DNA from: Strigamia acuminata
Taxonomy: Eukaryota > Arthropoda > Chilopoda > Geophilomorpha > Linotaeniidae
Direction: 5' to 3'
DNA length: 64,000 nucleotides
Assembly (NCBI GenBank): GCA_949358305.1
Contig: OX442314.1
Location: forward strand, 4,281,087-4,345,086
Part shown: one piece after another, positions 2,005-64,000 of the stretch
How positions within the stretch are numbered: the stretch's first letter is position 1
Layout: every line of letters starts with the position of its first letter
The notes under the pieces: model-generated
Told to the model about the DNA's origin: nothing
The model's database searches: none
The model's input: only the letters and a program-made list of their open reading frames with translations
Made by a program: the position numbers and the translations under genes

Positions 2005-2171
2005 AAGATGTGTATAAGCGTCCCATTTCATTCAATTATCGTAGTTTAATATTTATTTTGAATCTAATTTCAGTTATTTTGTTATTTTTGGATCAAATAA
2101 TGGAAATTTCCGAATTTTAGTTCAAATTTTGTCGCAATTTGTGATCAAATTTTGTTGAAATTTGACGATTT

Positions 2172-3712: not shown

Positions 3713-3838
3713 ATTTTGTCAAAATTCTGATTTAATCACTATACATAAAAAAGTATAGTGAATCGAGATATGAACGCAATTTGCTTAAATAAAACATTCG
3801 TTAAGAATTTATTTGTCCAATATTTATTTCAAATTCCA

Positions 3839-25055: not shown

Positions 25056-26357
25056 TTTGTTTATATTTTTTGTTTACATAAAACTAACGAAAACGCAAGA
25101 TATTATTGACGTCCGAAGTAAATAGACAACTACTTCTGTTGATAATAAATTCTTAAAAGAATATTTATGGTGATAAATTTGCAATTTTATTTTTACTATT
25201 TTATTAAATTTATACAGGTTATGGCTGTACATACAACACTGTACTGAAGTTATATTCTTGCTATATCAACAATCACTACTCTAGTCTTTCAGTCGTCATG
25301 GAGCAATGGATGGTGCATCATCGCGCATGATTATTAAAAAATGGCCACTGTGATTACAACTCAACATCTAAGTGATATATTTTTTCAGACTTAAAATGTC
25401 ATTTGACACACTAGGTGCATTCAATAAGTCTAAAACGTATGCAAAACTCGTTTCGTGTTTGCACCTGACGTCATTCCCATTGAATAAAATGTTATTCAAT
25501 GGGAATTGGAATGACGTCACGTAGTGGTTTTAGTTTCACGTATAAATTTATTAGTTACAGCGTGATTACAATTTCAAATGAGTAGAAAACCAGTTATAAC
25601 TTTTTCAAATAAAAACGTGCAGTGAAAGTAATGACAGTCCCAATGCTAATCCCACAATGCTGCCGACATCACTTAGCAATTGTGATATTGGATATTTTTG
25701 GCTATCTATTGTAGTTTCATCGAAACTATCAGCTGGCCGAAGCTTTATAAACGTGTAAAAATTAGGTTTGAGTTTAATTTCATGCATAATAGTTTGGTAA
25801 TAAATATTTTCACAGGGTTGTTTACATTTGCAAGTTTTGAGATTGGAATTATAATTGTTAAAGTACAGGGAACGAGCACGAGTAATGTCTTGCACCGTGT
25901 TGCAAGGCGCCAAATACGGTGTTGGCATGAACGGCAATCTGAAACCAATTATAATCATTTAATCAAATGTTGTCAGCATTTTCTAAACGGAACTACAACA
26001 TTACCTGCAATTCATCCTGTGAAATAAATTGTTATGCATGCAAGAAGTTTGACACGTGAAATAGGCAGTTTTGTTTTGTTCACACGGATTGTGTTTGGTA
26101 TTTCTCTGTATGGTCTGTTTGATAACGTAAGCATGCTTTATAAATTTTGTTTTTGTAGTGCTTATACACAGTGTACCCTGTGTGGTTTGGACAACTCTGA
26201 GATCCAGAAAGTCTAAGTTTGGCAGATAAACAATCGTTTATATGGTAAATAAATGATTTGATTCAAAAACAAACATTTCGTCTACAAATTCGTCTGAGAC
26301 AAAAATTTAGACAATGTGACTGGTATCGTCTTTGCCTTGGCAGTCTGGGGACTGGTT

Positions 26358-26452
26358 ACTATGGTTTGGGACGCATACTCACTTAATAATGACAAGAGAT
26401 TCCATATTGTCGATTCCTAGTCCATTGCCTTAACCACTGGGCCACCACTACA
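26358..26452 (-). other. Degenerate tRNA-Ser-like sequence (tRNA relic or SINE head)
   Basis: The minus strand reads GTGGTGGCCCAGTGGTTAAG, matching an A box with D-loop (TGGCCCAGTGG), then GGACTAGGAATC, a variable-arm-like stem and GAGTATGCGTCCC, a weak B box (consensus GGTTCGANTCC). The acceptor stem does not pair well. It lies in intron 9 of DEG/ENaC copy 1. Not a functional tRNA by eye. Confidence 0.35.
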
Positions 26453-26639
26453 AACTATTGTTGTCTTTGAGCAGGCAGTCATGTTGATGAACAAAGTTGT
26501 GATGTCATATGTCATGTGATATCAAATTACTTGGCTTCCAGAGTAAAGTTTGAACAGGCTAATCACCAAGTGTAGTGCTACACTTGACCTTTTTACTCAA
26601 AAAATCAAAAAATGGTGTTTCAACACACAGTAAGGAATC

Positions 26640-27080
26640 CTGTGTGTTGTAACTGTTTGTAACAATGTGAGAGAGAGGTGCATTTAAATATTTGAAAGGA
26701 CCATTGCTCAGGTAATGTGAATACTTTATTTAACAACAATTTTAACAATTGTGGATTACACACTCCTACGGTCTCCTTCTGAGCGTTGCAGTGGTGAATG
26801 GGGAGGAGACAGAGTCAGCAATAGGCACGACTGCCCTTGCTGGCTCAGGCCTTTCTTAACACATTCATTTGTCTCGGCCGAGACCAAGCACTCTATCTCG
26901 TGACCTCTCTCTATGGTAGTCGTTCTTCAACTCTCTACTACTCCGCACACCACTCAGCTCCCTTCATCCCTCACTGGGTCATACCACTCCGCAAAAGAGG
27001 AATGATATTAGGGCCACTGGGCGGTGTGTGGCAGTGACGCGGGTCACCCTTGGGTGGTGCAGCGGTCACAACGAAAAGTA
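26640..27080. other. GC-richer insert in intron 9 of DEG/ENaC copy 1
   Basis: A roughly 440 bp stretch of higher GC than its surroundings (CTCCTACGGTCTCC, GGCTCAGGCC, CCACTGGGCGGTGTG). It is probably a fragment of a transposable element, but no ends are seen. Confidence 0.3.
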
Positions 27081-28384
27081 ATTGAATTATTCAAAATTGT
27101 GTATAATTATTTTTCTGCTTTGTCTAGTCTGGACATATGACATTTGACCAATTTAGAGAACGGACTCAGGATCAGACAACTTTCTGGAGCTCGATCTATG
27201 TCTGGACAACACAGGGTACACTGTTCTTAGAAGATGCAATAAAACTCTGAACGAATGCGGAGTAACAAAATCATATTTTCTTGGAGTAGGTTTTTGGTCA
27301 TTAAATCTAGCAGTTTTTAAAAATTGCAAAAACTAAAACTTTGAATGCACTCAGACGTCACCTTAGATATACGAAGAGCTAGTATAGTCGCTGCACCATA
27401 GTTTATAAACATAGGTGCTAGAATATTAACTTCATCTTCTGGATTATTTAGAAAAAACTGAAAAATATTGTAATTACCATTAATGCACTAATAGAATGTG
27501 GGTGTATTATTGACACCTAGATGTTCTAGTCATTTATTGGTATTGCTATTTATTATGAGTTTCTATGATGTCATTAATGTATGAGCGCCACCTGGTGCAC
27601 TGTGCTTTATACCGTAAAGGAACTTTAACGGAACCACTTCCGGTTTTACGCTAACTCTAACACGTCTTTTTTCTGTACATCCACTTCAATCCTTAGACAG
27701 TCATCACTATTTATTTTATCTTTAACAATCTTGTGTTCAGAACTTAGCATCAACATCCCAGGTGCAAATGCCACCTTGCATTGGCTGAACAAATTTTTTA
27801 GGAATTTAGATGAGAGATATAGTACCATTGCTTTTTAATCAACGTCTTTTCGCTTGTTGTTAACTACGGAGTATTTTTTATGAAATAAATTTACTTTAAT
27901 CTTACCCATAGATGTTGTTCACAAACTTCTGGAGGAAAAAGACGTATAAATGCAATTATGACATCTGCTGTTACATGGTGGGTTTTTTCTTTAAATAAAA
28001 ATTAAAAATAATCAATATACTTTAAAAGATCCTGTACAGTACTTGCGAAGACTAATAGCTAGGGGAGGTGATTAATTCAACATCAGCGGGTTCTGGGAAA
28101 AGCTTGGTCTGCAGGATTACCCAATCTCCAAAATGACTCTGTTTAGACCACGCATCTAGTCTGCAGACTGTTACCGTATCAGATTTTTGTTGGGCCTTCA
28201 ATAATTGAGTGGTTATGATTATTGCAATAATCAACAAATCACAATAATTGCTCATTTAATGAAACTCCTTATTATAAATGCTTGTTTTTATGCTAAATGA
28301 GGCTCACAGCAGCTTGACAATTGATAACTCATGATATGTGAAGAAAAGAATTTGTAAACATCTTGCATTGCAAGCCGGTTATAG

Positions 28385-28662
28385 TTATTTTAGCGACGCT
28401 CATTTTAGCAATTTTTACAAAAAAAGTGCCATTTTAGCGATCACGTTTTAGCGACACGATTTACCGCGACAAGCCGGCTCAAAAAAGTGGTTTGCATAAA
28501 AAAACCAGCAAGGTTAGGTTCGCGGGGGGTCAAGGGCCCCCCCCCCTTGTTAGCCCTTCTTAGGAGTTAAACCTAAGTATTAGTGCCGTTTTGTGTCGCT
28601 AAAATGACACGTTCGCAAAAATGGTGTGTCGCTAAAATGAAATCGCTAAAATGTAGTACATC
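28385..28662. mobile_element. TIR element (TTTTAGCGA arms) with poly-G/poly-C core
   Basis: ATTTTAGCGACGCTCATTTTAGC and GTCGCTAAAATGAAATCGCTAAAAT are inverted arms of repeated TTTTAGCGA. The core has GGGGGG and CCCCCCCCCC. It lies in intron 7 of DEG/ENaC copy 1. Confidence 0.55.
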
Positions 28663-28781
28663 CTTGCAAGCATGTATTACTGCAGGTACAGAAATCATTG
28701 ATCAAATTAATTTGTATAAACATGTAAAAGGAAATACTAGTTGTCTCGTTGTTTCGAAGGCATCAGAAAAGCAAAGGATGC

Positions 28782-29205: not shown

Positions 29206-30811
29206 TACACAATACAGAGTATAGACCTAAATTGTTGAACTGATAAGTTACCTGTGTTTACTTGTGAACAATTACCAAAAGGAAGTTGAATAAGACTGGT
29301 TGTTGTGTTTAGTATTGTTTCATATCCCAAAAAGTGCTATAAATGTAAATTCTACATCATTTCTGTTGTATTTAAAAAAAAAAATCTATTGTACATACTT
29401 TAGTGAGCGTGTCGTTAACATTAACTGTTTGATGGATATTTAGCATCTTCCAAATATCTTGCAACGACAATTTATCATTGACTAATAGCCATGGTGATAC
29501 TTCATTGCAGGTTTTGTTTGTCTGATAAATTTACTGCCGCCTCGCTTGTTCCATCTCATCACTGCGATTTTCACCACAGATTGTGACGGATGGAAACTGT
29601 ATGAAGGCCCGTTGATCTATAGTAATGATTTTTGACACAGGTTCTTCTATGTAGCAGCTTAAACGACATTGCAACAAGTATAGAGTGAATCCGACACTAA
29701 TTACAACCAGCACAATTTTAAGCTTTTTTAAAACTTTATTAGTTTCGATTTGCTCTTCACTCGCAATGACTTCTTTCTTGGTTAACTCATAGAGATGGCG
29801 AATCTTATCAATGCTTCTTATTTTGCGCATGGTTGCTACAACATAATATAAATACCAAATAATTTCAGGTAGTGAGATTACTGATAGACCGAGAAATAGT
29901 CCTAGATTGCCGCCTAAATCTGATAGTAAAGCAATAAGGTCGTAGGTGAAGCGTTCTTGATACACGGTAATTTTGTCGTTAGTTAGAGCTAAAGTCAGAG
30001 ACATTATTTTTGGATCATCTGCTTCGCCGGAATCAGTGTAGGGTGTGAAAGCCAGATGCTGACATGGAGGTCGACAAGAACAAGTAGTAATTGCATTTGT
30101 GGTGTCAATTAATTTATTGACTATGCCGTATTGATCGTGTGTAGCATTTGAACATTCACAAAGCGGTAAATTTATTTTCAGAAAAGGAAATCTTAAAAAA
30201 AAGAAAAGTGTGTGAAATTAGGATGGTTTTGTTGTGGGTGTGTATGGATTTGTGCAAAACATATTGATAATCTTGAGTGAATACGTATACAGTATATTAT
30301 ATGCTTTTTACCGGCAGGTTAGATCATTTTCTAATCTTTTGAACAAACACTTTTGGTAGCAGTCTCTGTATTCAGTTTCATTGGAGCATGCGCGTTTCGA
30401 TGAATTGAGAAATACGTACTGAAATTATACAAGTAGAAACATACTAGATCAGAGTTTCATTTTAAATGGGTTTAAATGTTACTTTGTCATAACTCAAATT
30501 TATTTTCACTGTTGTGCCAGTGGTTTCATATGTAGTGAAGAAAACTTTTCCAAAATTATGTAATGAAAATATAATCTATAAGTAAAAAAAAAAGAAGGAA
30601 ATTTATTTCTCTTCTTGCTATTGGCATGAAATTTTATAACATTACTAGGTATAAGGCTTCAGGGCAGATGTCGTGATAAAACTTTTCAAAATTGACTGTC
30701 AGTTGTTTTCCAACAAACGATTCACTAGAATTCTTAGCTAACCATAAAATGAAAAGATTATTTTACTTTTATACAGTTGAGTAATCAATAGTGAATGCAT
30801 AAGGTGTATTC

Positions 30812-31569: not shown

Positions 31570-32223
31570 TACATAGTCAACTGCGCACTACAACTGTAGT
31601 GTTTTATTTACCAAATTGAAATGCTGAGCAGATTCCGAATGCGTGATCTATTTCCTTCTGGATAAAGCTTTTGTTTGAAAATTCCTGCAGCGGTTTAAAT
31701 AATTAGTTTTTATTCTTTGTCATAGTTTTTAATTTGTCTTTACTTTCATTTTGACGTTCACTATTGCTGTCGTCAAATTGGTGGCTTTCCAAACTTCATC
31801 CATATTGTAAATTGGGCGTTCCATAAGAGTTTTCATCATGTTTATGCACTCGTATGGATTCTTTCGACCTGTTTTATCTAATTCCTTACTCTTATTCCAA
31901 AGCATGGCCAATTCTTTTGAATGGCCACCACAGATCATCAAGTATGGTAAAACGACATCGTCTGATTTTTCTATTACGTCAACAGCCGTTGGATAACTAA
32001 AGTAATGCATTACTCTGTCATATGTCTGATAAGTGAGCACGCATGAGCAAAATAAGAACAAAATAAGCCAAAAGGTGTGACGTTTGCTCCAACGTTGTTT
32101 ACTGTTAATGAAATCATCCAAACCAGTTAAACAGCAGCTCGGTTTGTTCGCATCATCTCTCATTAATTGATGAATTGTTATTCGTAGTTTTCTGTTTCTT
32201 TTTTTGGTATAGTTATTTTGCAT

Positions 32224-33483: not shown

Positions 33484-36400
33484 TTATGCAGTCCTAGTTT
33501 CGACAAACTGACCAACCAGATTAAGTCGAAACCAATTATAACTTTTTAAAACGTAAACTTGCAAAGAAAGTAATGACATTCCCAATGCTAATCCCACAAT
33601 GCTGCCGACATCACTTAACAATTGAGACATTGGATACTTTTGGTGTTCGGTTGTAGTCACATCGAAACTATCAGCAGGCCGAAGCTTTATAAATGTGTAG
33701 AAACGGTATTGGATTTTAGATTCATGCACAATAGTTTGGTAGTAAACATTTTCGCAGGGTTGTTTACATTTGCAAGTTTTTTGATTGGAATTGTAATTGT
33801 TGAAATACTGAGAACGGGCACGAGTAATGTCTCCCATCGTGTTGCAAGGTGGCAAACTAGATGTTGACATATATGGCAATCTGAAACAAGCAGTAGTTCA
33901 ATTCGACGGTAATGATTAGTAGATTAGAGTCAAATTTTATGAGTATTTTACAACAATACCTGCAATTTATCCTGTGAAATAAATTCTTCTGCATGCAAGC
34001 AGATTGACACATGAAATAAGCAGTTTTGTTCTGTTCACAAGGGTGGTGATTGGTATTTCTACGTATGGTCTATTTGATAACTTAGTAAGTATTACGGAGT
34101 AAAACTTTTGTTTTTGTATTTTTAATATACAATAAGTGCATTCGATCTCTTTTGCCATTAAAGTTGGCTGTTTTTAAAATTGCAAAAACTAAAACTTTGA
34201 ATGCATCCAAACGTTACCTTGGATATACGAAGAGCTAGGACAGTCATTGTACCATAGTTTATTGACATAGGTGATAAAATATTAACTTCATCTTCCGGAT
34301 TATTCAGAAAAAGCTGAAAATTATTATATCTGGTATTAGAAAAAAACTTCTTCAATCGTTAGACATTTGGAGCTTGTAGTGTTGTAAGCACAAGATTAAC
34401 TTTTTTTATGAAATAAATTCACTTTGGTCTTACCCATAGATTTTGTTCACAAACTTTTGGAGGATAAAGCTTTAAAGGTGCCATTGTTACCTCTGTTGTT
34501 ACGTGGTGCGTCTTTTCTAAAAAATAAAAATAAAATAAAAAACAGTGAAAAATTAATTTAACTCTTAAGTTTTTTAACTCTATGGTGCCGTACGTTTTCT
34601 CTAGTAGTGGCCCAACACTGGTCGGTACTGTACCCTTATACCATGTTCACACAAACGGATCGAGTTTGACTGGATCTGATCCGCCCGATCAGATCCAACT
34701 GAACAGTCCCAATATTCACTGTGATGGAGTTGTGTTCACATCCAAATGTGATGCGCAACAATGGAATGCCACAGACTGCTGACATTATTTAATGAATTCC
34801 AATCCGAATTCAATTGTCGAATCAAGTTGTGGGAACTCGATTGACGAACGGTGTTGTTGGGCCCACAAATCTAGATCTTTGAACGGAGTTCAGTGTTCAC
34901 AACAATCTTGGATCTATACTCTGGTTCGACTCAAGAGTATGCCTTTCTAAGAGCCGCATCACTGGTGTAGTGATCCAAAAATGTAGACCCAAACACCATA
35001 ACAAACATGAGTTTTTCACTCATATGTTCATAAAACCTTATTTAATAAGTTTAATAAGTATAATAAGTATAAAATAATCAAAATTATATCAACTTAAATG
35101 GTAATAACAATCACAAATCATAATAAAAATAAAAACTACTTTTCCTAGTGGTAGTAATAAAACTTGAGTTAGGAGTAATGCGGCTCTTAGAAGGGTATAC
35201 TCTTGAGTCGAACCAGAGTATAGATCTGCAACTTCGGATGAGATCCAAAAGCGTAGTGTGAACATGGTATAAGTTAACACAATGTTGTCTTTTCTCGCAT
35301 TGGCAACTTGCATCACCTGATGGTGTGTTTTTGCCAAGCTGAGGCCTCGAACGACTTATGGGATTTGCAGTGCTTTATGGAATTGTTCACAATGCCACAG
35401 GAATTTGTCACAAGTTTTGATCAAGATCGTGTAATTGTGTTCTGTTGAAAAAAAAGTTTTCTGTGTAAATTACCTGTTTTTACTAGTGAACAATGACCAA
35501 AAGGCAGTGGAATAAGACTTTTTGTTATATTTAGTACAGTTTCATAACCAACAAAGTGCTATAAATAAAAATTAGATACATTATAAGCTTACTTTGAATA
35601 GTTATTGTTATATCCATGTACACCTATGGACAAAAAAATCTTCACTTACTGTCAGTCGCATTTAAACTTTCTGTTGCCCCCAGAAGAAGTAGACTGCTCT
35701 AGCCGCCGGTGGCAGAAAAATGAACTGCTCATTTGGAGCTGAAGCAGCCTGACAGCATATGAAGATTTTTTGTTTGTAGGTGTACAATCTAGGTCATAAA
35801 AATTGTCGCTGTTTTCCATGCTAGGCCTAGGGAAAAGGCGACAATTTTTACGACCGGATTGTACCTTAGTCAGCTTGTTGTTAACCTGAAGTGTTCGATG
35901 GATATTAAGTGCCTTCCAAATATCTTCCAATGACAAGTTCTTGTTGACCAATTGCCACGGTGATATGTCATTGCAAGTTCTGTTTGTCTGCTTAAGTAAC
36001 TGCTTTCTGGCTTGTTCCGTCTGGTCACTGCGATTTTCACCACAGATTGTAGCGGATGGGAACTCTATGTACCGCCGTTGATCTATGGTGATGATTTTTG
36101 ATACAGGTTCTTCCATGTAGTAATTTAAACGAACTTGCAACAAGTATAGAGTGAATCCTGCACTAATTACAAACAGCAGCAACTTAAGCTTTCTTAAAAC
36201 TCCGTTAGTTTCGACTTGCTCTTCACGTGCAATGACTTTTCTCTTGGATATCTCATAGAGACGGCGAATCTTATCGATGTTTCTTGTTTTGCGCACGGTT
36301 GTTGCAATACAATATAAATACCAAGTGATTTCGGGTAATGAGGTTATCGATAGACCGAGAAATAGCCCCAGATTGCCCCCTAAATCTGATAGCAGAGCAA

Positions 36401-50200: not shown

Positions 50201-53200
50201 GTACAACAGTAGTACATTTTATATAGATTCTAAACCCTTTTCGGCCCAGAGAATCCACTCATTCTTATTAGCTGTTTGTTTTGCTAGGTGACCATACCAA
50301 CCAATCAAGCTCTCTAATTAGAGCCATTTTTTAATATAGGAATAAGTTGTCAGGATTTTTCAGATGCAATTTCAGATGTACTGTAATTTGCTTGCTGAGT
50401 ACTATGAGCAATTAAAGTTAATGCTTTTCTGGGCAGATAGAGTTCACTAAATCTTCTCTATACTTTATAACTCAAATGGGATCAAATTAATCACCCCCAT
50501 CTTTGAATCATTTTATCCCCAACAATGTCTTAGTCCCCAACTAAAAAGGCAGTGGCTACGTTCATGTCCAACGTGAACGTATTATTTTGATGACATGCTG
50601 TGATTGACTGAGACCCATTGATGTCAATTCGTTCCCTCGACGTAAGGTTTCTCAAATTTGATGTTCTCGAGGTTTTAGCTTCTCTTTTGTCAGGTAAGAA
50701 TGCGTACTGCCAGAGGAACTGTACCCATGGGTTAGAAACACCATTGTGGCAGCCTATCAATAGCTAAGAGAGCATGGTGTTCACAATAAAAATAAAAATA
50801 AGAATTGAGCTAAAGTTGGCAGCAATTGGGATAAATATGTTGGGATATGAAACCTTTATTAGGAAGGGAGATTTTAAGTCATTTTGTTGGTTCATTTGAT
50901 AAAGTTCTCAGGCATTTAAACCGTAAAAAGATGAGTGATCCCACGTCATGCCTCTGACCAGTTTTAGACTTCTAAACTAAAGGTTCATTTTTCCCGCCCT
51001 TTTTTTTTCCCCGGGAAACGGGAAATTTTAATTCAATTTCCCGGGAATTCAACAAAATTAGGTATTTTTACACTAAAAACAAAAAAAAACGTTGAAAACA
51101 CAAAAAAAAAACACTGAAAACACTAGCTGCATTCCAAAACTAAAATATTTTGGGTTTTACTACAATTTTAAACCCAAAATGGCATCATTTCCTGCTTAAA
51201 CCCATGTCAAAACTTAAAATACACTTAAACTAAAATTGTTATTTTAATTTTTGAATGCAGCTACTGAAAACAAAAAAAACACTAAATACACTAAAACAAA
51301 TTAAAATGACACAATAGCCTTCCCTCTAAATTGGTCCCATATTTTATGACCAATGTTTTGGATGCCAAAGTCAATTCTTTTTGGTCCAAATTCAAATCTA
51401 GAGTTTTTAAAAATTTAAGCAAAGATACACCATCCTTATTCCTGCGCTCCTTAATTCGAACCAATAATGGTCCAAGCAATTCTGCTGAAATTGCATTGTT
51501 GTTAGTTTGCAAAGAATCTATTGTAGTCTATTGCAAACGACAAGAATATGAAGCGAACACGACGAGAAAAACGACGGGAATGCAAAGCAAATGCAACGGA
51601 AAAAACGACGAGAAATCGACGGGAATGGGAAGCAAATACGAAGTGAATGTGACGGAAAACGACGGGAATGTGAAGCGAATGCAACAGGAAAAACGACGAG
51701 AAATCGACGGGAATGGGAAGCGAATGCCACGGAAAAACGACAGAAATGCAAAGCGAACGCGACGTGTAAGCGACGTAGTCGTAAATGCTGTTAGGTTATA
51801 ATATTTACTAAAGACATTGTACGTATTATTGTATCGTATTATCAAGCAACTACGATTGCTAATTGTTCCTTCTGTATATATGTCACTTGTATTTATACTT
51901 TGCGTTACAAGCATTTGCAGTGTTTACATTTGATATGTATAACTTCTATATTGCGCCTATAGGTGGCACTTGTATACCTTTGGATCACGTGATTAGACAG
52001 ATTAAACTTAGACTTTCACCTGCACACACCTGTCTCTTCTTTCCTATGTTTTGGGTTTTCCACACCACTGCAAAGCTGGGCTTTTGCTAATGATTTGTAC
52101 CACAAATCAACAAGGTTATGGGCCCAACAACGTGGGAAAACCCTGGAAAACCATTTGAAGTCATTTTCAACAAGTTGGAGCCAATTAGAGGTGAAGAAAG
52201 AAATTCCCTCTAATTTATTCAAAATGGCGGCGCCCACAACTGAGGATGACAACTTGTGTTTTTGCCGAGATTCCGTGGATTTCCAAGAAGCAGAGAGTCA
52301 CTAAACAACACAGGAACACTATTTGGGGTTTGAAAGATATTAAACCCATTAATTATTCGTTTTTTTGTTTCCGAATTTTGGATTTTGGACGTTTTTCCGT
52401 GCTACGAGGCGAAGCACGCATCGGCGAAGTGTCGATATTTACGCAAAGTGAACGTTTTCTTCGAGTGTTACACGAGGACATTAATTCTCGACAACCACAC
52501 GTGAAGTGTGAACGAGAAAGAAGAAAGGAGACGGAAAACAAGCGGATTTTTGTGACAAAACGACACCTGATCTGATGAACGAGATTTTCGACGCGGAAAA
52601 GACATCAAAACGAGGCGAAATCAACAATACAGCTTTAAGAAGACTAGAACTTTTGTTTATTTCGAATATTGCTTTGAATACTATTAGTTATTTAAGTTTA
52701 TTAGCTTAGTACTGTGTTAGGATTTACTAACTTAACTATAAGAGCGAACTAACATCACAACTTTGCACCTTGTTGTGATAAACCAGTACTGAAAGTGTTT
52801 TTGAGGAAAACATTGTGTGTATTCAACGTTTTTCAAGTGGTGGACACTTATTTCAACCATGGAAACGGATAAACCAGAGAGGAAAATCACCTTGCTGAAC
52901 AGAGAGAACTATGATTCCTGGAAACAACAGATAAAAGTACTGTTAATGCATCATGGTTGTTGGGGTTTCACCGATGGAACTGAGGAGGCGTTGGCACCGG
53001 GGGCGTCATGGCGTGATCGCTCAGATTACAAACTGCGGAAAGGACGTGCCTTCAGCCTAATTTACTACTCGATTGAAGACCAATATCATGAGCTGCTTAA
53101 CGGGATCGAAGACGCGAAAAAGGCGTGGAATACGCTGCAAACCAACTTTGAACCAGTTTCCAGAGCGCGGATCATTCGTTTGTTGGACGAATTCTTCAGT

Positions 53201-56200
53201 TTAAAATATGACCCGGCAACGGAAACAATTGGGATTTTTGCAGCAAAGATACGAAACGCCGCAAAGAAATTGGCCGACGTGAAACACAAGTTGGAGGACT
53301 TATATCAAGCTTTCCAGTTGATTCGGTATTTACCTCAACAATACCAATCAATCGTTCAAAGTATCTACAGATGGGAAGACATAAACTTTACATTAGAGAA
53401 GGTCGAGGCCGAATTGGTGGCAGAAGAGGGCAGACTTGCACAACAGAGACGGGATTCGGGTCAGGGACAGATAATAGATGCTTTCAGCACTGGACCAAGC
53501 AATTCCAACACAAAGAGCGCTGAAAACACGCCGAAATCTCAACAGCAGCAGGGAAACAATAGCCAAAACAGTCGTGGATACGGAGGCGGACAAAAGGGCG
53601 GCCGATCAAACTATAGAGGCGGCAAAAATTTCAGAAATTTTTGTGGAAACACGACCGGATCATCGGGACGGGGGCCGTGTTTTCGCTGCAATCAACCAGG
53701 CCATTGGGCGAGAGATTGCACGACGCAATTGCCACCAAATAGCAGCCTAAATACCAACACAATGGAAGAATTGGATGCGAATATGATGAATGTCGGTTTC
53801 CTAACCGAATTGGACAAAGAAGAAATGCTGCAGTGCAGCACAGCAAATAACTGTTGGATTTACGACACCGGGGCAACAGGGCATTTCTGTAAAGAAAAGG
53901 ACCAGTTCTTTAACTTCAAACAAACCACGGGGACCATTAGCCAAGCGGATAAGAAGACATTAATCCAAATCCAAGGCGTCGGCGACGTCTGCGTGATGTG
54001 CGTCGTGGGACAAGAAACAATTCCGATTACTTTAAAGAAAGTTTATTACGCACCGGATTTGAGGAGAAATTTGATGTCGGGACCGTGTATAGATGAAGCA
54101 AGATGCAAGGTCGCAATTGGCTCTGGAATAGTGAAGATTTATGATCCACAGTGGAAACGACAGTTAATGCAAGCAGTGAAAAAGGACAGGCTGTATTACC
54201 TTCAAACAAGTGATCAGAAACCAGATTTCGACAAGTTGAGACAAAAACAGAACAATAAAGCCAATGTTGGCGAGCAACAAAACCAATCACCGGCTGGATC
54301 AACGAAAAATGCATCAAGTCCAGAAGAGGCTAGGCTTTGGCACGAGAGATTGGGACACATCCATTTTCCCAGTGTCCAACAAATGAGCAAAACACAAGCG
54401 GTAATTGGATTACCAGTGCTAGATGTCCCAATCACACAGTGTGATGTCTGCACATTGGCGAAAAAGAAGTCGGTTTCGCACAAATCAATACCTGGAATTA
54501 GATCGAAACAGCCACTAGAATTACTGCACATGGATGTATGCGGGGCTTTTGGGACAGCAACGCTCTCAGGAAATAGATATTTCCTGACCATCACAGATGA
54601 TTATTCGCGTTACTCAACAGTGTATCTAATGAAGAAAAAGGATGAGGTATTCGAGATATTTCAGAAGCATGTGAAACGAATAGAACGATTGCTCGGAAAG
54701 TCGGTTCTAGCAATTCGAACGGACAATGGGATGGAGTTTTGTTCCAACAAGTTCGGGGAGTACCTTGAGGGACAAGGAATTGCACACGAGAGAACCAACG
54801 CATACACACCTCAGCAGAATGGAGTTTCTGAGAGGCTTAACCAGACTTTGGCGAATGGAATGCGCGCACTCGTCTATGACGCGTAATTGGAACATCGTTT
54901 TTGGGGCGAAGCAATCCTAACATTCAACTATCTCCGAAATAGGATTGCCAAACTAAATTCAGATAAAACACCAATGGAACTGTATTATGGCCGTAAGCCG
55001 TCGCTTCGACACTTGAGGAAGTTTGGGAGTTTATGTTTCGTGCAAAAGAAAATTCGAGATGGGAAAATAGACAATAAGGGACTGCACGGAATTATGCTTG
55101 GCTATTCCCGGATAACAAAAGGATACAGGGTCTGGCTGCCAGAATTTTCCAAAGTGATCGAGACCAATGACGTTAAGTTTGTAGAAAGCAGACGCGGAGT
55201 TGAAGGCGTGCTGGGCCTACCAGAGAAATATACAACGTATATCGACAACCTAGAAGACAACTTGGATGATAACATCGATCGTCAATACTATTCGGATGAT
55301 GATGTAAGACCACCGCTACCTCCGCCGCAACCTATTGTGAAGAAAGAGGAAGAAGAATTTCCTCAACTGAAATTGAAGTTCAGATTACCGGATGAAAAGC
55401 TTCGACCCAAACCAAACATACAGCTGAAGCAGGGGTAAAACCGCAGGGCATTTTACCGCAGCCATGTCTTATGAATCCAATACCTACGATACCTGATCTT
55501 GTCTGGAAGAAGACAGAAAAGACAAGACCAACTGGACAGAGAGATATTGAGTACACCATCGAGGGATACGACAAACCAAGATTGCGTTCGATACCAGAAG
55601 TCAAACGTTACTGCAGGGACCACAATCTCCGTGTTCCTGAACATCTTTTCGAGGACAAGAGAAAGAAGAAGCCATCGGAATCGAATACAACAGCAGACTA
55701 TTCAGACGCAGATATAGACGAATTAACCCTTGACTTTGAAGCCAATCACCTCGAAGTTCACATTCCTACACGCTTTGAGCAGATTGCTAACTTGCCACAA
55801 AAAGGAGAGTGGAATCAAGCGATGTCTGACGAGATCGACACTATGCACGAACGCGACGTTTGGGAGTTGGTTCCACCGCCACCCGATACTAAAGTGATTG
55901 GATGTAGGTGGATCTACACAATCAAGCTGAATGAAAAGGAAGAGATAGCCCGATATAAAGCGAGACTTGTCACGCAAGGTTTTTCGCAAATCTACGGCGA
56001 GTCTTATGAAGAGACTTTCTCGCCTGTGGTCGACTTCTCCATTGTACGCTTTATGTTTACGCTGCTAGTGTGCATGTTAAAGTGGTCCTATATCCAGGCT
56101 GATGTCAAGTGCGCTTATCTCTACGCAAAGCTGCACAAAACCATATATATGCGCCAACCCAAGGGATTTATTTGCAAAGGGAAGGAAAACTACGTATGCA

Positions 56201-59200
56201 AACTCCTTCGAGCAATATACGGTCTACACCAATCAGGCCGAGAATGGGGAATCGAATTGGAGGACACTTTGTTAAAACTTGGATTGGAGCATGTCAACTG
56301 GTGTAATTGCGTTTACAAGTTCGGAAGCGTGGCATACTTAATTGTGTATGTCGACGACCTCGTTGTTTTCGGCAGACAGTACGAGGATGCCATGAACGTC
56401 CTGAATATGGTCAAAACGCAATTTGATCTCGTGATTTTGGGAAAAACGAAGAAGTTGCTGGGAGTGGAATTCCATCCACATAATCAACAGATGGTGTTAC
56501 ATCAAAGGACTTATATAAATAAGGTCCTGCTCAAGTTCAAAAACCATCTGGAATTAGTCAAGATTAGATCGCAGCCGATGACGAAATCGACTGTTCTCAC
56601 AAAGAAGCAGTGCCCAACCACGATAGATGACTTTAAACAAATGGAGGGAATCCCTTACAGGAACCTACTTGGGTGTCTGGCCTTCATCGCTTCGAGAACC
56701 AGACCAGACATTACGTACGCAGTTAATATACTGAGTCAGTTCCAATCCAATCCGGGGTGGGACCACTGGATCGTCCTACTGGACCTACTCAGCTATGTTA
56801 GAACCACCAAGAACTTAGGACTGATGCTTTTCCCAAATAATCAAATTGAGATCATTGGATACAGCGACTCCGATTATGCTAATAATCGAGACGATCGGAT
56901 CTCCATTGGAGGGACTTTAATAACTCTTGGCGGCGCACCAATTTATTGGAGAACTTTTAAACAACGAAATGTGACGCTGTCCACTATGGAAGCCGAATAT
57001 GTGGCCCTTACCGAAACAGTGAAGGACTATATTTGGATCGTCCGAGTCCTACACGAGATCGTCCCTAAACTTGCAGATCACTTTTACCATCGTGTTCTTT
57101 GCGATAACATTTCGGCAGTAGATTTCACCAAGTCGAATATCGAAAATCGCAAAACTAAACACATCGATATAAGATATCATTTCATCCGAGAGCTTGTTAG
57201 GAGAGACAACCTCCAGATCTCACACGTTGGGACGAAATATAATTTTGCAGACATTTTTACTAAGTCCGTCGACAAGGTTGACCTTTTGCATTTTTGTAAT
57301 CTTTTCCTTGTTGACATTTGTCCGTTGAGCGCTTGATTATACGAGGGGGCCGATTGTTAGGTTATAATATTTACTAAAGACATTGTACGTATTATTGTAT
57401 CGTATTATCAAGCAACAACGATTGCTAATTGTTCCTTCTGTATATATGTCACTTGTATTTATACTTTGCGTTACAAGCATTTGCAGTGTTTACATTTGAT
57501 ATGTATAACTTCTATATTGCGCCTATAGGTGGCACTTGTATACCTTTGGATCACGTGATTAGACAGATTAAACTCACTCTATGTTTAGACTTTCACCTGC
57601 ACACACCTGTCTCTTCTTTCCTATGTTTTGGGTTTTCCACACCACTGCAAAGCTGGGCTTTTGCTAATGATTTGTACCACAAATCAACAAATGCAACGTC
57701 CAAGCGCATATTTCACGTACATGTACGTGTCGGGAAAACCCGGGAAATTCAACCAAATTTCCCGGGAAACGGTAATTCAAAAATTGCAAAAATTCCCAGG
57801 AATTCCCGCCCGGGAATGAACCTTTATTCTAAACCGGATGTTTAGAAAGTCTCATGTAACGGTCATGTCTGTCTGTCTGTCTGTCAACAACGATTCCGCA
57901 AAATCTACCGCAGCTAGAGCCAAACGGACAACGACATTAAATCGAGCATATCTATATTAGTCTCCTATGGTATTTTCAGATTTCTCCGACCTCCGGTTGA
58001 ATTAATAAACCGGTTTTAGTGCACTTTTAGCTGTGTATTTCATGAAAATTATGGAAATGACGTCATCATGACGACGTCATTTCCGTAATTTTCATGGAAT
58101 AGACTTGGGACAGACGGAAAACGGAAAACGAGAAACGGGAAATTATAACGACGGAAATGCGAAGCTAGTGAAACGTTCGTTGTATGCGATTGGTTTACAT
58201 CCCGGCATCGGCGTATTACGCGCATTTGGCGGCGTTCTGGGCGAAGAAGCTTTTGAATGATTTAATTGCAAAATTGTTGTTTTGTGTCATTAATTTATTA
58301 TTATTATTTTTTTAATTAGGGGCAGCGTTTAGAAGTCTCATGTGTAATGCTTCCCTGCATTACAAATGTTTACTTGTTTGTCTTTCCATTTCGTCCATGC
58401 TTCTGGGGTTGGGGTGCCTCAATCTATGATGCCAAATCATGCGTGTAGGCGCTCTAGCTGCACACGCAACTTCTCCCCTTGACCCCTCGCAATATGTTGC
58501 CGACAGTAAGAACTTGTCGTCCACTCGCTGCGCCGTCATCACTTTATTCCCAGCAGCGTCAAGTACGCTTGCGCAGTTTTTCGTAAATCTGACCTCCAGT
58601 CTGGCGTCCACGATTTTAGGAACGGATAATAAATTGGTTTGCAATGTCGGAACGTATAAAACGTTATTTAGACATAATCTATTCACCATCTCATTTTCCT
58701 TTATGACCAATTCTCCACGTCCTGGCAACCCCGCTTCGACTTCTCGGCTAGCCAGTCCTACATTTTGTGGATACGGCTCAAATGTGTAAAAAGCTTCTTT
58801 GTTTGACACCATGTGGCTCGTCGCACCCGAATCAATTAGCCACTCTTCTTCTCTTTCTTGCGCCGTCACAGCATTGGCGCGCTCGTCCCCTCGACTTCTC
58901 GGCTTCACCCACGCTCCAAACGAATATTCGCGTGGCTTGGTTGATGGATACGCCTCGCAACGTGCGCTGTGTTCGGTTGGCTTCTTTTCTCCTCGCCATC
59001 TCTCGAATGTTTTCGTTCCACCACCCACTCGTGTTTGTGCGTTCGCGTTTCCCGTCGACCCATCTCTTCCTTTATCCTTGGACCAGCAGTCCCTGACAAA
59101 ATGCCCATTTTTGTGACAATTATAACATTCCATTCCAGTTTTTCCTTTCGGTCGCGCCCTGTAGACATTTTCAGATCCTTGTCCGCTTTTCTTTTTGTTA

Positions 59201-62200
59201 CGTAGTCTTTCTTTCGCCCGAAGCATCGTTTGTGCGTCCATCATCAACAATTGTTTTTCTTCCCTTCAAAAATCCTGACGTTGTGCTCGAATTCGTAAGC
59301 GACCATTTCTTGGTTCGAATAAACCTTCCTAAGCTCTGCTCTCTTTGCTCCTATCGCTTCGGCTCTGTTCACGTATTCATCCACGGTCTCTTTTTCCTGC
59401 ATCTTTAACTTTGCCAATTCAATTCCACACCTGACTATTTTGTAGTTATTCTTCGGCCCCATGTCGGCTTCAATCTTCTCCCACAAGCTCTTTGCACTTG
59501 TCTCGGTGCAGTACCGTATCGCTTGCTCTGCCGAAAGTGAAATCACCAAAACGTTCATGGCCTCGTTATCTCTCTTCTCCCAATCTTCCTAAATAGCTTG
59601 CATTTGAGCATAAGTTGCCTGTCCCGGTTGTGCCATCTCCAGTTCCGCTTGCTCGATCGATGTTTTCCACAAGCATTTCATTTTTAGCATCGTCCTCACG
59701 CGCATCTTCCATAGGAAATAATTCCGCTCTGTCAGCCTCTCTATCGCCGTTGAAGTTGAAGAGATATTCACGACCGTCGCCGCCATTTTCTCTCGAACAA
59801 ATGCGTGCAAAAGAACGTACGAATTACTCTCTCTTGTCAATTCCACTTATTTATACTTGCGCTTCACTGCTACAGCCCGATTTTTTCAACCGTCCTCTGC
59901 TACCACTTGTTGGTTCATTTGATAAAGTTCTCAGGCATTTAAACGGTAAAAAAATGACTGATTTGCTTTAATCGACCATTTTGGTACAACTCGTTGTCAA
60001 AAACAACCTCTTGCGCGCAACAAAGCTTATTTCACAGAGTGATTAACAATCGCGCAATTAGTAATTACTTTGATGTTAAAATTCACTCACAATCGTTTGG
60101 TGGAAAATGAGTCAAAGATGTGGGGTGATTACCATTCTGCCTCATATTAACGCCGGGTTAAAACAGGTGTCGGGCCCGAATAAGCAAAGGGCTTCAAATA
60201 GACGTCGAGTGGTCGAGTCAGGAAAAATAATGAACACGCCCTGGCATTTATTTGAGGCAGTATGGTAAATCAGTCAATTTAATTGTTATTAGATTGGTTA
60301 GATAAATAATTTTTGTGAATCATTAATTTTACTTTAATCATACCCATATATGTTGATTGCAAACTTCTGGAGGATAAAGTCCTATCAACGACATTTTAAG
60401 TTCTGCTGATAGATAGTTTGATTTTTCTAAAGAAATTTAAAAAATCTATATCAATATATCTATCAACACCTCTAAATATGCAAGACTCCAGAAAAGCTAG
60501 GGTAGTGGTTCAAACACTTTCGCATGCTAAACCCTTTAGCTAGTGGTGCATTGCCAGTAGTAATATACCAAGCATGATCAATGATTGTCGGATCTTGCGG
60601 TCTGATCGTAACTGGATCTTGTTGTAAAAGAACAGGTGTGGAAGCGAATATACAAAATGGCCAAGATCGTGTGGTTCTTTAAGTGTTCCTGTCTCGTAAT
60701 TTGCCACTATGCGCGCTGGGAACAAGTAGGCCACACGGTCTAAAATAATTACATTAGCGCAACAAGCGGATTTTTATTCGAGTCATTATTTAATGACGTA
60801 ATTTACAGGCCCGATTACGGGTTGCCATTTGGTGGATTTCGGCTAAACTTTGCAAGTTCTTAGGGATAGCCTGAGAGGGCGCTAGAAAATTGTTACGCGC
60901 CTGAACCTCGCAGTAAGACAGCGGGCTCAAACGTGTAGTTCTAGCATTTAAATGGCAATTTCTCTCACTTGAAGAGATGAGTTGCTAAACTCTCTCACTA
61001 GTCAGCGCTGTGCTAATTATGCACATGACGGCTGGACTGATCAACTCATTAGATGGGGAAAACTTTAAAGTTTACTTGCTTAACAAAGCAAGCAGGAGTG
61101 ATCAGATGAGTTTTGAACAGTAAGTAGTGAACATGGCTCTAACATGGCTTAGTGGACCAGCACACTCAGTGCTTGGTCCCAATAGCTCAAACCCACTTCA
61201 GAATAAATAACATTGATTATCATTTCATACTTTTCTCATAATTTAGGTTTATAATTTAAGTGTACTATGTATACTATGTTTGAATTGAATAAAACCATTT
61301 GTAATAACTCCCAGAATAAATAAGGTTTGATTTGAAATTGAACTAAAAGTCTTTCTAATTTATTTCACCTCAGGATTCTCAAGGTCTCTCGTCATTAAAT
61401 AATGATAAGTTGTTATGCGTGTTTAAATTCCCCAACTCACACGTAACAATATTTATAACATACATTTATAACACGTGTTTTCAGCGCCACTTGGTTACAA
61501 GTTTTGTTACTGGAACACTTCTCAAGTCAATATAAAAACTGGAGTTGTTAGAAATAAGCGGAGACGTGCGTGTTCTAGGGAAATGAGATGCTGAGGTGCG
61601 GAGAAGCCAACTTTCAGCAGGAGCTTTGAATGATAGCGAATGACGTGCAACAGGAAGTTGGCGAAAAGTGTCATAAATTATGCTAAAGTGTCCTTTGTTC
61701 CCTTGAATATTGATATGTAAACCCCAAAAAGTTACAATAAACTTGTTCCTTCTTCAAAAAAGACATGTTTTATTTCGCTCATCTAGAAAGTTAGAAAATT
61801 AGTAAATTTACAGTTTTCACTCAAAATTAATCAAAATCGACTTTGCGAATCTTCAAATTCAAAGCTAAGGGAGTCACTTCTATACCTGTTTTCTTACAAC
61901 GTTGTATGGATTTAAATGCAACAACTAATCAAACACGAGGTGTATTTTTTGTACGGGACACAACTTTCTCACATACATTACCTGTCTTCACTTGTGAACA
62001 ATTACCAAAAGGCAGCTGGATAAGACTTGTTGTTATGTTTAGTATAGTTTCATAACCAAAAATGTGCTATAAATATAAATTAAACACAAAATACCATGTA
62101 TGGTAATTGTTTTGTTTTATCCATATACCTTGGAAAACTTGTCGTTAACTTGAAGTGTTGAATGGATGTTAAGAGTCTTCCAAACATCATCCATAGACAA

Positions 62201-64000
62201 TTGATTGCCGACTAATTTCCAGGGTGGCATGTCATTGCAGGTATTGTTTGTCTGGTTAAGAAACTGCAATCTGGCTTGTTCCATTTTATCACTAAGGTTT
62301 TCACCACAAAGTGTGACACAAGGAAATTCCGTGTGACGACGTTGAACTATGGTAACAACCTGTGACACAGGTTCTTCCATGTAGTAGCTTAAGCGATATT
62401 GCAACAAGTATAAAGTCAATCCTGTGCTAATTACAACTAGCACAAACTTAAGCTTTCTTAAAACTCTGTTAGTTTCACTTTCAATTTGCTCTTCCGTTGC
62501 AATTATTTCTTTTTTGCATTTCTCATAAAGATGGCGAATCTCATCAACATTCCTTTTGCGGTTTGTTACAATCCAATGTAAATACCAAGTGATTTCAGGC
62601 AATGAGAGCAACGATAGACCCAGAAACAGGCCCAAATTGCCTCCTAAATCTGACAGTAAGGCAATAATGTCGTAGATGTAGCGTTCTTCATACACGTTCA
62701 TATTCTCATTCGTTAGTTCAAAAGTTAAGGTCATTATTTTTTTACTATCTGCTTCACCTGAATCTGTGTATGGTGTAAAAACTACTTGCTGACATGGACG
62801 GCGACACGAACAAGAAGAAATTGGATCTGTGGTGTCAATCAATTTACTTATGACGCCGTATTGATCGTTTACAGCATTTGAACATTCACAAAGTGGTAAA
62901 TTTATCTTCATGAAAGGCAATCTTATAAAAAGAAAATGACATTCAATTAGGATTGTATCGTAATCCTAGCAGTGTCGACTCACAATATTAAGATTAGGAT
63001 AAGCACTTAGATCAACCCGATTTTTGGCCATTGTTCTATTCAGTCCTTTGGTGGCTGTTTGACCGGATGTGACCAATATTGTCAATTTGGGTCATCTGCC
63101 AAATGTGCAGGCATTACATTCTGTATTCTTCGGTGCTTTGTGACTTATGGGGTTGTATACAGTATGTAGTGGCTGGCATTTTGTGGGATTGTTTCCAATG
63201 CCACACACCACATGGCTTATGACCGGGCTTGGTGCCTTGGGTGGAAAACCAAATGCAACAAAAGATTTTACCTGCAGGTCAGTTTGTTTTCCAAGCACTT
63301 TTGGTAGCAATTTCTGAATTCGTTTTCATCGGAGCATGGAACTTTTGACGAGTTGAGAAATACATACTAAAATTAAAAATCCGTCTAGAATTAGATGTTA
63401 CTTTTAATCAAGTTCTTGTTACTTTGTCATAACCCAAATTCATGTTAATTGTTGCACCACCGGCTTTATACCTCTTGACGAGGAATTTTCCAAAATTGTG
63501 TAATGTCAACATAATCTAAGCAAAAAAAAAGAGAATTATCATAATTGTGTTGTCAATTACCATGTTTACATGTAACCACTTATCCAGATAAGTGAAAATG
63601 CGAATATTACTTTTGTAGAAAACTGCATGCGTTTACAAAGAATGAGTTTTCTAACAAATGTGATGTCATATGACGTGTTTAACTCTGTGTTAAACTTGCC
63701 ATTGATCATCTACAATGCACTTCGCAGAAACAACATGTCACAGCATTGTTGTGACGTCAGCTTTTCTAGATAAGTAATGATTGGGTGTTTACATTGCAAA
63801 TGGCAATGCGCAAAACAACCAAAATCAACCTCAAACAATTAGATTTTAGTTTTCCAGATAATTTTGAGTTTTCTGGAAAACTGATTTGTTTACGTGATCA
63901 GTTTTCCAGAAAAGTAAATTTCGCATTTTCACTTATCTGGATAAGTGAGTACATGTAAACATGGTAATTGACATGTACTTTTTTCTTAATATTACCCAGT
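41250..64000 (-). CDS. Two-domain DEG/ENaC channel, copy 3 (5' end beyond window)
   Basis: Exons (minus): 63996-64000 (last 5 nt of exon 3, donor GG|GTAATA), 63423-63515, 63272-63366, 62129-62921, 61982-62066, 60344-60426, 43051-43146, 42802-42911, 41250-41634. Every junction is GT-AG, phases match copies 1 and 2, and no stop is present, so this is the best candidate for a working gene. Domain 1 end: PLCECSNAVNDQYG, CSCRRPCQQ, TM2 IIALLSDLGGNLGLFLGLS. The linker is slightly longer (KKEIIATEEQIESETNR). Domain 2: TM1 LKFVLVVISTGLTLYLLQ, FPCVTLCGEN, cysteine-rich exon 10 (NPCEKNK..FMCKTACRQ), CKCKRPCEHIFYQ, TM2 LLSDIGSIVGLTLGMSLLSL. Exon 5 lacks four codons relative to copy 1, in frame. Exons 1 and 2 should lie past 64000. 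Intron 8 (43147-60343, 17.2 kb) has absorbed three Copia elements and others. Confidence 0.85.
41740..42017. mobile_element. Half copy of the piggyBac-like element, intron 10 of DEG/ENaC copy 3
   Basis: GGGATTGCACCTGACAAACTAAGATTTTGCACATGC and the right end CTATGGGAGGGTTAA match the element at 15587-16069; the left end is missing. Confidence 0.45.
42018..42713. mobile_element. TIR element with 35 bp arms, intron 10 of DEG/ENaC copy 3
   Basis: AGGTCATTAGAAGAGAAATAAAAAATTTCTCTAATC is repeated inverted at 42677-42713 (GATTAGAGAAATTTTTTATTTCTATTCCTATGACCT). It begins directly at the TTAA end of the preceding fragment. Confidence 0.65.
43203..43566. mobile_element. TIR-like element rich in GTTGTATTCGAATA
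   Basis: CTACCGTCTTCCACCGA and TCGGTGGAAAACAGTAG are diverged inverted ends. The interior repeats (G)TGTT(G/A)TATTCGAATA at least six times in both orientations. Copia-1 inserted next to or within its right end. Confidence 0.5.
44159..44941 (+). pseudogene. Copia-1 Gag C-terminus and protease start
   Basis: Contains the Gag capsid end, a zinc knuckle CWNCGRIGHRYSEC (CX2CX4HX4C) preceded by Gly/Arg-rich sequence, and the protease active site WYIDSGASSHM. Upstream Gag (43814-44158) has stops. Downstream the frame is broken before the 1.6 kb TIR insertion. Confidence 0.8.
45191..46791. mobile_element. 1.6 kb TIR element inserted in Copia-1
   Basis: TA-GGGGGTTTCATTA and TAATGAAACCCCC-TA ends, duplicated TA. 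The interior is repetitive (GATTTTGCAATT/ AATTGCAAAAT) with no transposase, and carries another nested element at 45673-46430. It splits Copia-1 between the protease and integrase regions. Same end type as 9355-9658. Confidence 0.75.
45673..46430. mobile_element. CAGGGTG-type TIR element, doubly nested
   Basis: TACAGGGTGAGTCAAAAGTC and GACTTTTGACTCACCCTGTA are perfect inverted ends with TA. The arms continue (TGGAAACACC; GACCTTCTGGGTCAAATTTATGG). It is the third level of nesting: inside the 1.6 kb element, inside Copia-1, inside a DEG/ENaC intron. Confidence 0.82.
46799..47789 (+). pseudogene. Copia-1 integrase, frameshifted
   Basis: A first frame (46799-47173) has the pre-integrase motif LWHKRLAHLGF, the CDKC pair and HVDLCGPM with the first catalytic Asp. 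A second frame (47076-47789) has VRSDNGTEF and PYSPQQNGAAERPNRKLL with the second Asp and the Glu. One frameshift at about 47140-47160 separates them. Confidence 0.8.
47935..48225 (+). pseudogene. Copia-1 reverse transcriptase N-terminus
   Basis: WQKAMESELKSQREQDTWDI and VGSRWIYLLKTN match the start of Copia RT. The frame then shifts; the motif YDESYSPVVRIATIR follows at about 48255-48305 before the solo LTR. Confidence 0.75.
48312..48872. mobile_element. Solo LTR inserted in Copia-1 RT
   Basis: 561 bp starting TGTGAAAATCGG and ending CAAGTTTAACA, flanked by a 5 bp direct duplication TAATG (48307-48311 and 48873-48877). It contains AATAAA near 48708 and no coding. The RT frame resumes right after it. 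Confidence 0.75.
48903..50103 (+). pseudogene. Copia-1 reverse transcriptase and RNase H
   Basis: Main frame 48905-49882: DIETAYLHALLKGTVFME, KKAIYGLSQAGQAW, catalytic YVDD at about 49168-49179, then RNase H with TYTDASW and STCEAEFTA. A frameshift near 49850 leads to the C-terminus (STDRMLADMMTKAIGPEKL) in 49837-50103. The long open frames suggest a moderately young element. Confidence 0.85.
50209..50883. other. Repeat-derived spacer, possible RT scrap on minus strand
   Basis: The minus strand at about 50533-50605 reads LDMNVATAFLVGD, resembling the Copia RT motif MDVKTAFLNGDL, but its surroundings do not continue the domain. Nothing else recognised. Confidence 0.3.
50884..50940. repeat. 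Repeat shared with the Copia-3 LTR region
   Basis: TGTTGGTTCATTTGATAAAG through ATGAGTGAT matches 59908-59965 in the same orientation with few differences. It may be an LTR piece of Copia-3. Confidence 0.5.
51124..51263. mobile_element. Small TIR element (TAGCTGCATTCCAAAA)
   Basis: TAGCTGCATTCCAAAACTAAAAT and ATTTTAATTTTTGAATGCAGCTA are inverted ends. The ends resemble those of the element disrupting DEG/ENaC copy 2 exon 1 (38211). Confidence 0.65.
51535..51785. repeat. Purine-rich degenerate tandem array (GACGGGAATGxxAAGCGAA)
   Basis: Repeats of CGACGGGAATG(G/T)(G/A)AAGCGAATGCAACGGAAAAACGACGAGAAAT, period about 55 bp with inner half units. It gives open frames on both strands that are not credible proteins. 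Its last unit contains the Copia-2 target site AATGC. Confidence 0.65.
52859..54886 (+). pseudogene. Copia-2 Gag-protease-integrase part, ends in a premature stop
   Basis: The start METDKPERKITLLNRENYD is chosen because it fits Copia Gag N-termini; an in-frame ATG 42 bp upstream is less likely. Gag (about 1-270), zinc knuckle CFRCNQPGHWARDC (about 53677-53718), protease WIYDTGATGHF (about 53856-53888), pre-integrase LWHERLGH, CDVC, integrase core HMDVCGAF, RTDNGMEF, TPQQNGVSERLNQ. TAA at 54884-54886 interrupts the frame; the same frame continues directly after it (HRFWGEAILTFNYLRN) to 55438. Confidence 0.88.
54887..55438 (+). pseudogene. Copia-2 integrase C-terminal part
   Basis: Same frame as the upstream part, separated only by the stop at 54884-54886. 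It contains the integrase tail (PMELYYGRKPSLRHLRKFGS, LGYSRITKGYRVWLPE) and an acidic/proline spacer. The frame closes at 55436-55438 through a one-base indel near 55400-55440. Confidence 0.82.
55441..57336 (+). pseudogene. Copia-2 reverse transcriptase and RNase H
   Basis: In a shifted frame relative to integrase. RT: GCRWIYTIKLNEKEEIARYK, TFSPVVDFSIVRFM, QADVKCAYLYAKLHKTIYM, YGLHQSGREWGIEL, catalytic YVDD at about 56347-56358. RNase H: GYSDSDYANNRDD, STMEAEYVALTE, NRKTKHIDIRYHFIRE. It ends TGA at 57334-57336, shortly before the polypurine tract. The domain is complete and uninterrupted. Confidence 0.88.
57865..58330. other. Spacer with TGACGTCA hairpin
   Basis: A short (GTCT)n run at 57869-57883 and a palindrome at about 58040-58098 (AAATTATGGAAATGACGTCA / TGACGTCATTTCCGTAATTTT) containing CRE-like TGACGTCA. 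Unassigned repeat remnants; no gene. Confidence 0.4.
58360..59930 (-). mobile_element. Copia-3 fragment: Gag, protease, pre-integrase; rest missing
   Basis: On the minus strand a primer-binding site AGTGGTAGCAGAGGAC lies just inside the LTR edge TGTTGG (about 59908), then Gag begins about 59785 (MAATVVNISSTSTAIERL). One stop (about 59590) and one frameshift (about 59245) occur in Gag. The second frame (58360-59250) has the zinc knuckle CYNCHKNGHFVRDC, protease WLIDSGATSHM and pre-integrase WHHRLRHPNP, then ends; integrase, RT and RNase H are absent. Of a different Copia lineage from Copia-1 and -2 (different PBS type). Confidence 0.82.
59908..59965. repeat. Copia-3 5' LTR edge (partial)
   Basis: TGTTGGTTCATTTGATAAAG through GACTGAT, matching 50884-50940. 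As the inner edge of a minus-strand 5' LTR it should extend rightward; the outer end is not recognisable. Confidence 0.45.
60130..60267. mobile_element. TIR element (TACTGCCTC family)
   Basis: TACCATTCTGCCTCATAT and ATTTGAGGCAGTATGGTA inverted ends, interior GCCGGG/GGGCCC pieces. It lies in intron 8 of DEG/ENaC copy 3, close to exon 8. Confidence 0.65.
60427..61981. other. Intron 7 of DEG/ENaC copy 3
   Basis: 1.56 kb, several times longer than the gene's typical short introns. It holds a pair of inverted motifs TTATTTAATGACG (60787) and CGTCATTAAATAA (61391) that may bound a 0.6 kb TIR element. No exon was found. Confidence 0.4.
63551..63973. mobile_element. TIR element with 55 bp arms in intron 3 of DEG/ENaC copy 3
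   Basis: TGTCAATTACCATGTTTACATG..CCACTTATCCAGATAAGTGAAAATGCGAA is repeated inverted at 63918-63973. The centre carries further pairing TTTTCCAGA/TCTGGAAAA. It accounts for most of this 480 bp intron (63-70 bp in copies 1 and 2). Confidence 0.82.

Follow-up and report, generated by a model that had tools for sequence, protein, structure and literature searches.

Channels of the DEG/ENaC family, which are Na+-permeable and amiloride-sensitive, are textbook trimers of single-domain subunits. An HG motif before TM1 is a feature of these channels that varies within the family, and an acidic residue at position 18' (E18' of ASICs) characterizes a subfamily rather than the family as a whole. Among solved channels, the nearest in sequence to the genes described here is PDPNaC1, which, according to those parts of its description available to us, comes from antennal neurons of the centipede Scolopendra, has a sensory role, and forms a homotrimer with a single domain in each chain of 421 aa (PMC12714832). 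Fusion of subunits has been accomplished by engineering: the accessible portion of one study reports that trimeric ASIC1a concatemers give currents (PMC5449180). These are joined tail to head, as are the domains described below, but they are man-made and consist of three ASIC1a units, and thus of a complete trimer. A report of a natural DEG/ENaC concatemer was not found in the literature searched, which included the available parts of PMC12714832, PMC9822975, PMC7067487, PMC7738191, PMC10556566 and PMC5449180.

Here, we analyze a window of 64 kb from the genome of the centipede Strigamia acuminata, in which, unlike in PDPNaC1, DEG/ENaC genes are predicted to encode chains of two domains. A sequence-only reading of this window had proposed such chains and had stated that no natural DEG/ENaC concatemer is known to be described; the literature searched yielded no counterexample, but unannotated cases are present in the databases, among proteins of Strigamia maritima and, apparently with three units, of decapods.

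Gene Structure in the Window

Three tandem genes lie head to tail on the minus strand of the window, with exons modelled from splice borders and reading frame. Gene 3 is not wholly contained in the window, as its exons 1-3 (C1:4345928-4346425, 4345792-4345864 and 4345082-4345173; locus L042) are found beyond the window end, at C1:4345082-4346425. Each gene contains a fused exon, at 29399-30191 in gene 2, 35865-36764 in gene 1 and 62129-62921 in gene 3. Its first part encodes the C-terminal region of one ASC domain, including TM2; a linker follows, and the last part encodes TM1 of another such domain together with the post-TM1 motif. The ends given for these exons in the sequence-only reading were exact, with AG/GT borders on the minus strand, and the exons for TM1 of domain 1 (D1) and for the C-terminal part of domain 2 (D2), with its CKC..PC motif and TM2, were located where they had been expected. 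The fused exon had also been described as unbroken, which is true of genes 1 and 3, but not of gene 2, where an in-frame TAA (29531-29533) falls into D2.

Gene 3 is an intact frame of 11 exons and 800 aa, without an internal stop and with GT-AG borders at every intron. In the window, its D1 is continued by exons 4 (63423-63515; phase 0) and 5 (63272-63366) and by the cysteine-rich end and TM2 in exon 6 (62129-62921), an open frame matched by Pfam ASC in two stretches with 74.6 bits. The linker within exon 6 comprises 37 residues, none of them Met (62456-62566, computed from the exon coordinates and a 28-copy alignment). The remainder of D2 follows in exons 7 (61982-62066), 8 (60344-60426), 9 (43051-43146), 10 (42802-42911) and 11 (41250-41634), the last of which encodes a CKCKRPC motif, TM2 of D2 and the stop. 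Exon 9 is preceded by the 17-kb intron 8. This intron harbors copia-like retrotransposon frames (44153-50103 and 52805-57336 on the plus strand, 58360-59588 on the minus strand) for gag, integrase and reverse transcriptase/RNase H, recognized by eye and partly open over hundreds of codons.

Gene 2 (25605-32223) also has 11 exons, with GT-AG borders at all introns, matching phases throughout, and 782 codons when both the final stop and the TAA are counted. Its exons 1-5 (31744-32223, 31612-31684, 30646-30737, 30483-30575 and 30312-30418) are followed by the fused exon 6, exons 7-10 (29252-29336, 27906-27988, 27362-27457 and 26005-26114) and exon 11 (25605-25938), whose end comes earlier than that of its counterparts in genes 1 and 3. 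The exons of gene 1 (33484-39263) correspond to these, except that exons 5 and 6 are merged into a single fused exon (35865-36764). The intervening intron is exactly missing from gene 1 and present in gene 2 (30192-30311) and gene 3 (62922-63271). The other exons of gene 1 are exon 1 with TM1 of D1 (38797-39263), exons 2-4 (38064-38136, 36979-37070 and 36823-36915), exons 7-10 (35474-35558, 34434-34516, 34218-34313 and 33960-34069) and exon 11 with the stop (33484-33880). Near its 3' end, exon 1 is interrupted by a transposon-like element (38210-38798), which a repeat search delineated by its 48-nt inverted arms, 73% complementary to each other. With this insert in gene 1 and the in-frame TAA in gene 2, two of the three window copies are probably broken.

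Elsewhere in the window, exons resembling those of the translin family (TSNAX-like) and of purple acid phosphatases were recognized by eye at 3839-5445 and 6032-6559 on the minus strand, and short-period tandem repeats at 2122-3731 and 6472-7478 leave several frames open on both strands.

Two DEG/ENaC Domains in One Frame

Both halves of the chain match the Pfam ASC profile (PF00858; length 455) above its curated cut-off of 23.6 bits, which disposes of the concern that one of them might not be DEG/ENaC. The best match to D1, in gene 2, spans profile positions 5-455 and scores 109.6 bits over D1 and the start of D2, the sequence having been taken up to the stop; D2 alone, in gene 1, scores 73.4 bits over positions 26-449. 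In gene 3, D1 (402 aa) and D2 (361 aa) are homologous to each other, being 24% identical across 258 alignment columns (E = 3e-15), and contain 15 and 13 cysteines, respectively. The four most hydrophobic windows of this chain (residues 50-68, 369-387, 441-459 and 766-784) coincide with the four expected transmembrane segments, of which only the last exceeds the usual hydrophobicity threshold of 1.6. Taken together, the ASC spans and the hydrophobicity profile predict for each domain the layout of TM1, a large cysteine-rich extracellular domain (ECD) and TM2. At the gene level, the introns of the first half have phases 0,1,0,0,2, and this series recurs in the second. Thus, as judged from the sequence, the genes very probably encode a single chain of two DEG/ENaC domains. 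While members of the family have one domain per chain, each frame here holds two, and we treat this as a variant within DEG/ENaC, not as grounds for exclusion from the family.

The linker was compared among the 30 matches most similar to gene 3, a non-random set from which two were dropped as identical to others. In the 28 distinct copies it is nearly fixed in length, with 37 residues in 24 copies and 35 in four, and contains no stop codon; it is likely cytoplasmic. A methionine that could serve as an internal start is absent from the linker in 18 copies, genes 1 and 3 included, and present in 10, which rules out that translation begins there in every copy. For 26 of these copies, arranged as 13 disjoint pairs and including the broken gene 2 with its in-frame stop (L015), pooled dN/dS was 0.47 in the D1 ECD, 0.22 in D1 TM2, 0.64 in the linker, 0.56 in D2 TM1 and 0.49 in the D2 ECD. 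The linker is hence the least constrained of these regions (four flanking regions, 0.22-0.56), but a dN/dS below 1 and a pN lower than pS (Fisher p = 0.005) support translation through it, under weaker constraint.

The two domains were also compared for residues of the pore. The G-x-S selectivity motif in TM2, for which one row was read by eye, is found in D1 in 25 of 30 rows, with GLA in four and GLL in one, and in D2 in all five copies examined. At position 18' (GLSxxSxPE), D1 is acidic in every one of the 30 rows, two of which are duplicates, with Glu in 27 and Asp in three, whereas an acidic residue at 18' is absent from D2 in five of five copies examined; in D2 of gene 3, the next position, 19', is occupied by Asp. 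In the window copies, the HG motif before TM1 was not found for either domain, and for D2 this means that its role in the pore may differ.

A Large Family in the Strigamia Genome

How widespread is the fused arrangement? Searches that used gene 3 exon 6 and a divergent copy on contig C6 as queries yielded at least 182 stretches in the S. acuminata genome that cross the linker, located on contigs C1 (95), C6 (58), C8 (11), C4 (6), C3 (4), C11 (4), C9 (3) and C32 (1). At least 176 of them are without a stop, and six contain one. As the searches scored the best 145, 150, 150 and 142 candidates, 182 is a lower bound, which includes some near-identical duplicates; the census retained 127 of 146 and 95 of 142 rows, leaving out fragments and most C1 rows already listed. 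The recurrence of the TM2-linker-TM1 fusion at this many loci excludes a chance arrangement.

The flanking exons were traced for 83 of the 146 rows, namely the close, linker-spanning copies on C1 and C8, leaving aside the unplaced C32 copy, fragments and divergent rows, with the help of 91 of 150 and 93 of 151 rows from two further searches. In 75 of these 83 copies, the fused exon is preceded by a match to exon 1 and followed by one to exon 11, both on its own strand, no more than 40 kb away and with nothing in between; five of the others have only the upstream exon, two only the downstream exon, and one neither. Not once among the 83 does a fused exon directly follow another, as would be expected of genes with two domains each. 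For seven exon-1 matches, the next match is exon 11 and a fused exon is missing from the list, owing either to fragments that had been left out or to single-domain genes. The order of the three exons is unchanged in the two divergent copies whose flanks were traced, one on C6 and one on C11 (L039 and L040), which are 27% and 28% identical to gene 3.

Some fused exons have identical search scores (C6:2863751, C6:2938076 and C3:11014287; C4:3023093, 3036458 and 3049807, the latter set spaced about 13.35 kb apart) and either were duplicated recently or are duplicates of the assembly. At C3:33897500-33902500 (L041) lies a fused exon that is more divergent and has a longer linker, and its D1 falls outside the other centipede D1 sequences in the tree. 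A single-domain paralogue is located on C5 (L043); its intron at CR|LPF is in phase 2, its first long exon ends in phase 0, and its stop comes just after TM2, the ends having been read by eye.

Relatives in Other Species

Three unnamed predicted proteins of S. maritima, T1JEH2 (P0001), T1IYF0 (P0002) and T1JEG4 (P0003), contain the same TM2-linker-TM1 stretch, with 49-53% identity. T1JEH2 has its N-terminal piece repeated and lacks TM2 of D2, and the other two are partial; as all three span the linker, the fusion is present in a second species. A structure prediction for T1JEH2 gave no reliable fold (pLDDT 35.7). Among sequences in the PDB, the chain encoded by exons 2-11 of gene 1 is best matched, in its domain 1, by PDPNaC1 (9jf7; E = 1.6e-16) and BRTNaC1 (8ymr; E = 5.8e-14), which belong to the ASC family like that domain.

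Predicted decapod proteins of about 1,000 aa, from Cherax (P0004), Homarus (P0005), Petrolisthes (P0009), Penaeus (P0016) and Halocaridina (P0017-19), appear to go one unit further. Together with eleven unnamed proteins (P0004-P0021 in all; crayfish, lobster, crab and shrimps), they apparently contain three DEG/ENaC units, as judged by eye in the alignment, with a short extracellular part in the middle unit; a Pfam scan of seven chains of this set gave one or two ASC stretches in five and four in two. Identity to the centipede chain is about 20%, and the decapod and centipede chains may or may not share a common origin.

Discussion

What can be deduced about the channel that such a chain would form? 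In the arrangement we favor, the whole frame would be transcribed and translated, and the two domains, joined tail to head, would be neighbors inside one trimer, with a linker of 35-37 residues providing sufficient reach from TM2 of one subunit to TM1 of the next. Each chain would then fill two adjacent places of a trimeric cation channel, and a separate single-domain subunit would take the third. With two domains per chain, such a 2+1 trimer of one chain and one single-domain subunit is the likeliest complex, to which we would give an even chance or slightly less. Its pore would be asymmetric. In the part of the ASIC1a concatemer study available to us, every one of the three E18' residues contributes to Na+ selectivity (PMC5449180). 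As the mixed pore would be short of at least one of its three acidic 18' residues, we predict a weak selectivity for Na+ over K+.

A partner subunit would be unnecessary if three two-domain chains came together in paired trimeric pores, one of three D1 and one of three D2, tied by the linkers. That 75 of the 83 close copies have their D1 and D2 exons together and correctly ordered is compatible with this, as are the G-x-S motifs and the similar constraint in both domains. However, a pore built from D2 only looks poor, given the missing acidic 18' residue (5/5) and HG motif, and the decapod chain apparently ends at three units, which fits one pore per three domains; we therefore consider paired trimers unlikely. 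The same difference at 18', acidic in all D1 rows and in none of the five D2 copies, could mean that D1 forms the pore, as a homotrimer or with other subunits, while D2 is a tethered side domain or is cleaved off after translation; the low conservation of the linker, the least conserved stretch, agrees with this. As D2 nevertheless retains two TM-like segments, its G-x-S motif and a dN/dS similar to that of D1, we find this reading a little more doubtful still.

The fused frame might also be a genomic matter only, split into two ordinary subunits by an internal promoter, by alternative polyadenylation or by an internal start. A linker Met for the latter is available in 10 of 28 copies, but missing from the remaining 18, no copy has a stop in the linker, and the nearly fixed linker length with a pooled dN/dS below 1 is at odds with a split, making it distinctly improbable. 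Finally, the damage to window genes 1 and 2 and the stops in six of 182 fused stretches might suggest an artefact of the assembly or of the gene models, or else an array of decaying pseudogenes, but with 176 of 182 stretches open, the same fusion in proteins of a second species and a pooled dN/dS below 1, this is strongly disfavored.

For the origin of the favored two-domain chain, the simplest scenario would be the tandem duplication of a six-exon gene with subsequent loss of the spacer, in which the last exon of the first copy and the first exon of the second copy would have become exon 6. The large arrays with their many diverged copies, together with the centipede antennal channel PDPNaC1 as the nearest solved relative, suggest that the family constitutes a sensory receptor repertoire. 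With at least 182 loci, this repertoire would be a large one, and a description of it was not found in the accessible parts of the literature searched.

With a natural chain of two domains, the threefold symmetry of the trimer is broken in a fixed way, and a question becomes testable, namely how such a chain fills a three-fold pore. The chain parallels the emergence, in another fold, of cation channels with two and four domains. The decapod chains, with their apparent three units, fit a linkage that follows the trimer, and might offer structural studies a complete concatemer of natural origin. By comparison with insect odorant receptors, which have a co-receptor in common, a broader scenario can be sketched, albeit tentatively and as one we hold to be rather less likely than otherwise. 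Covalent joining of DEG/ENaC subunits might be an arthropod sensory-receptor strategy, realized in geophilomorphs by at least 176 open two-domain chains with a shared single-domain co-subunit in a 2+1 arrangement, and in decapods by a three-unit chain that forms a complete trimer with non-equivalent pore positions. In the two- and four-domain TPC and Nav/Cav channels, pore subunits became covalently joined by internal duplication, as is proposed for the chains described here, but their fold is unrelated and their symmetry tetrameric.
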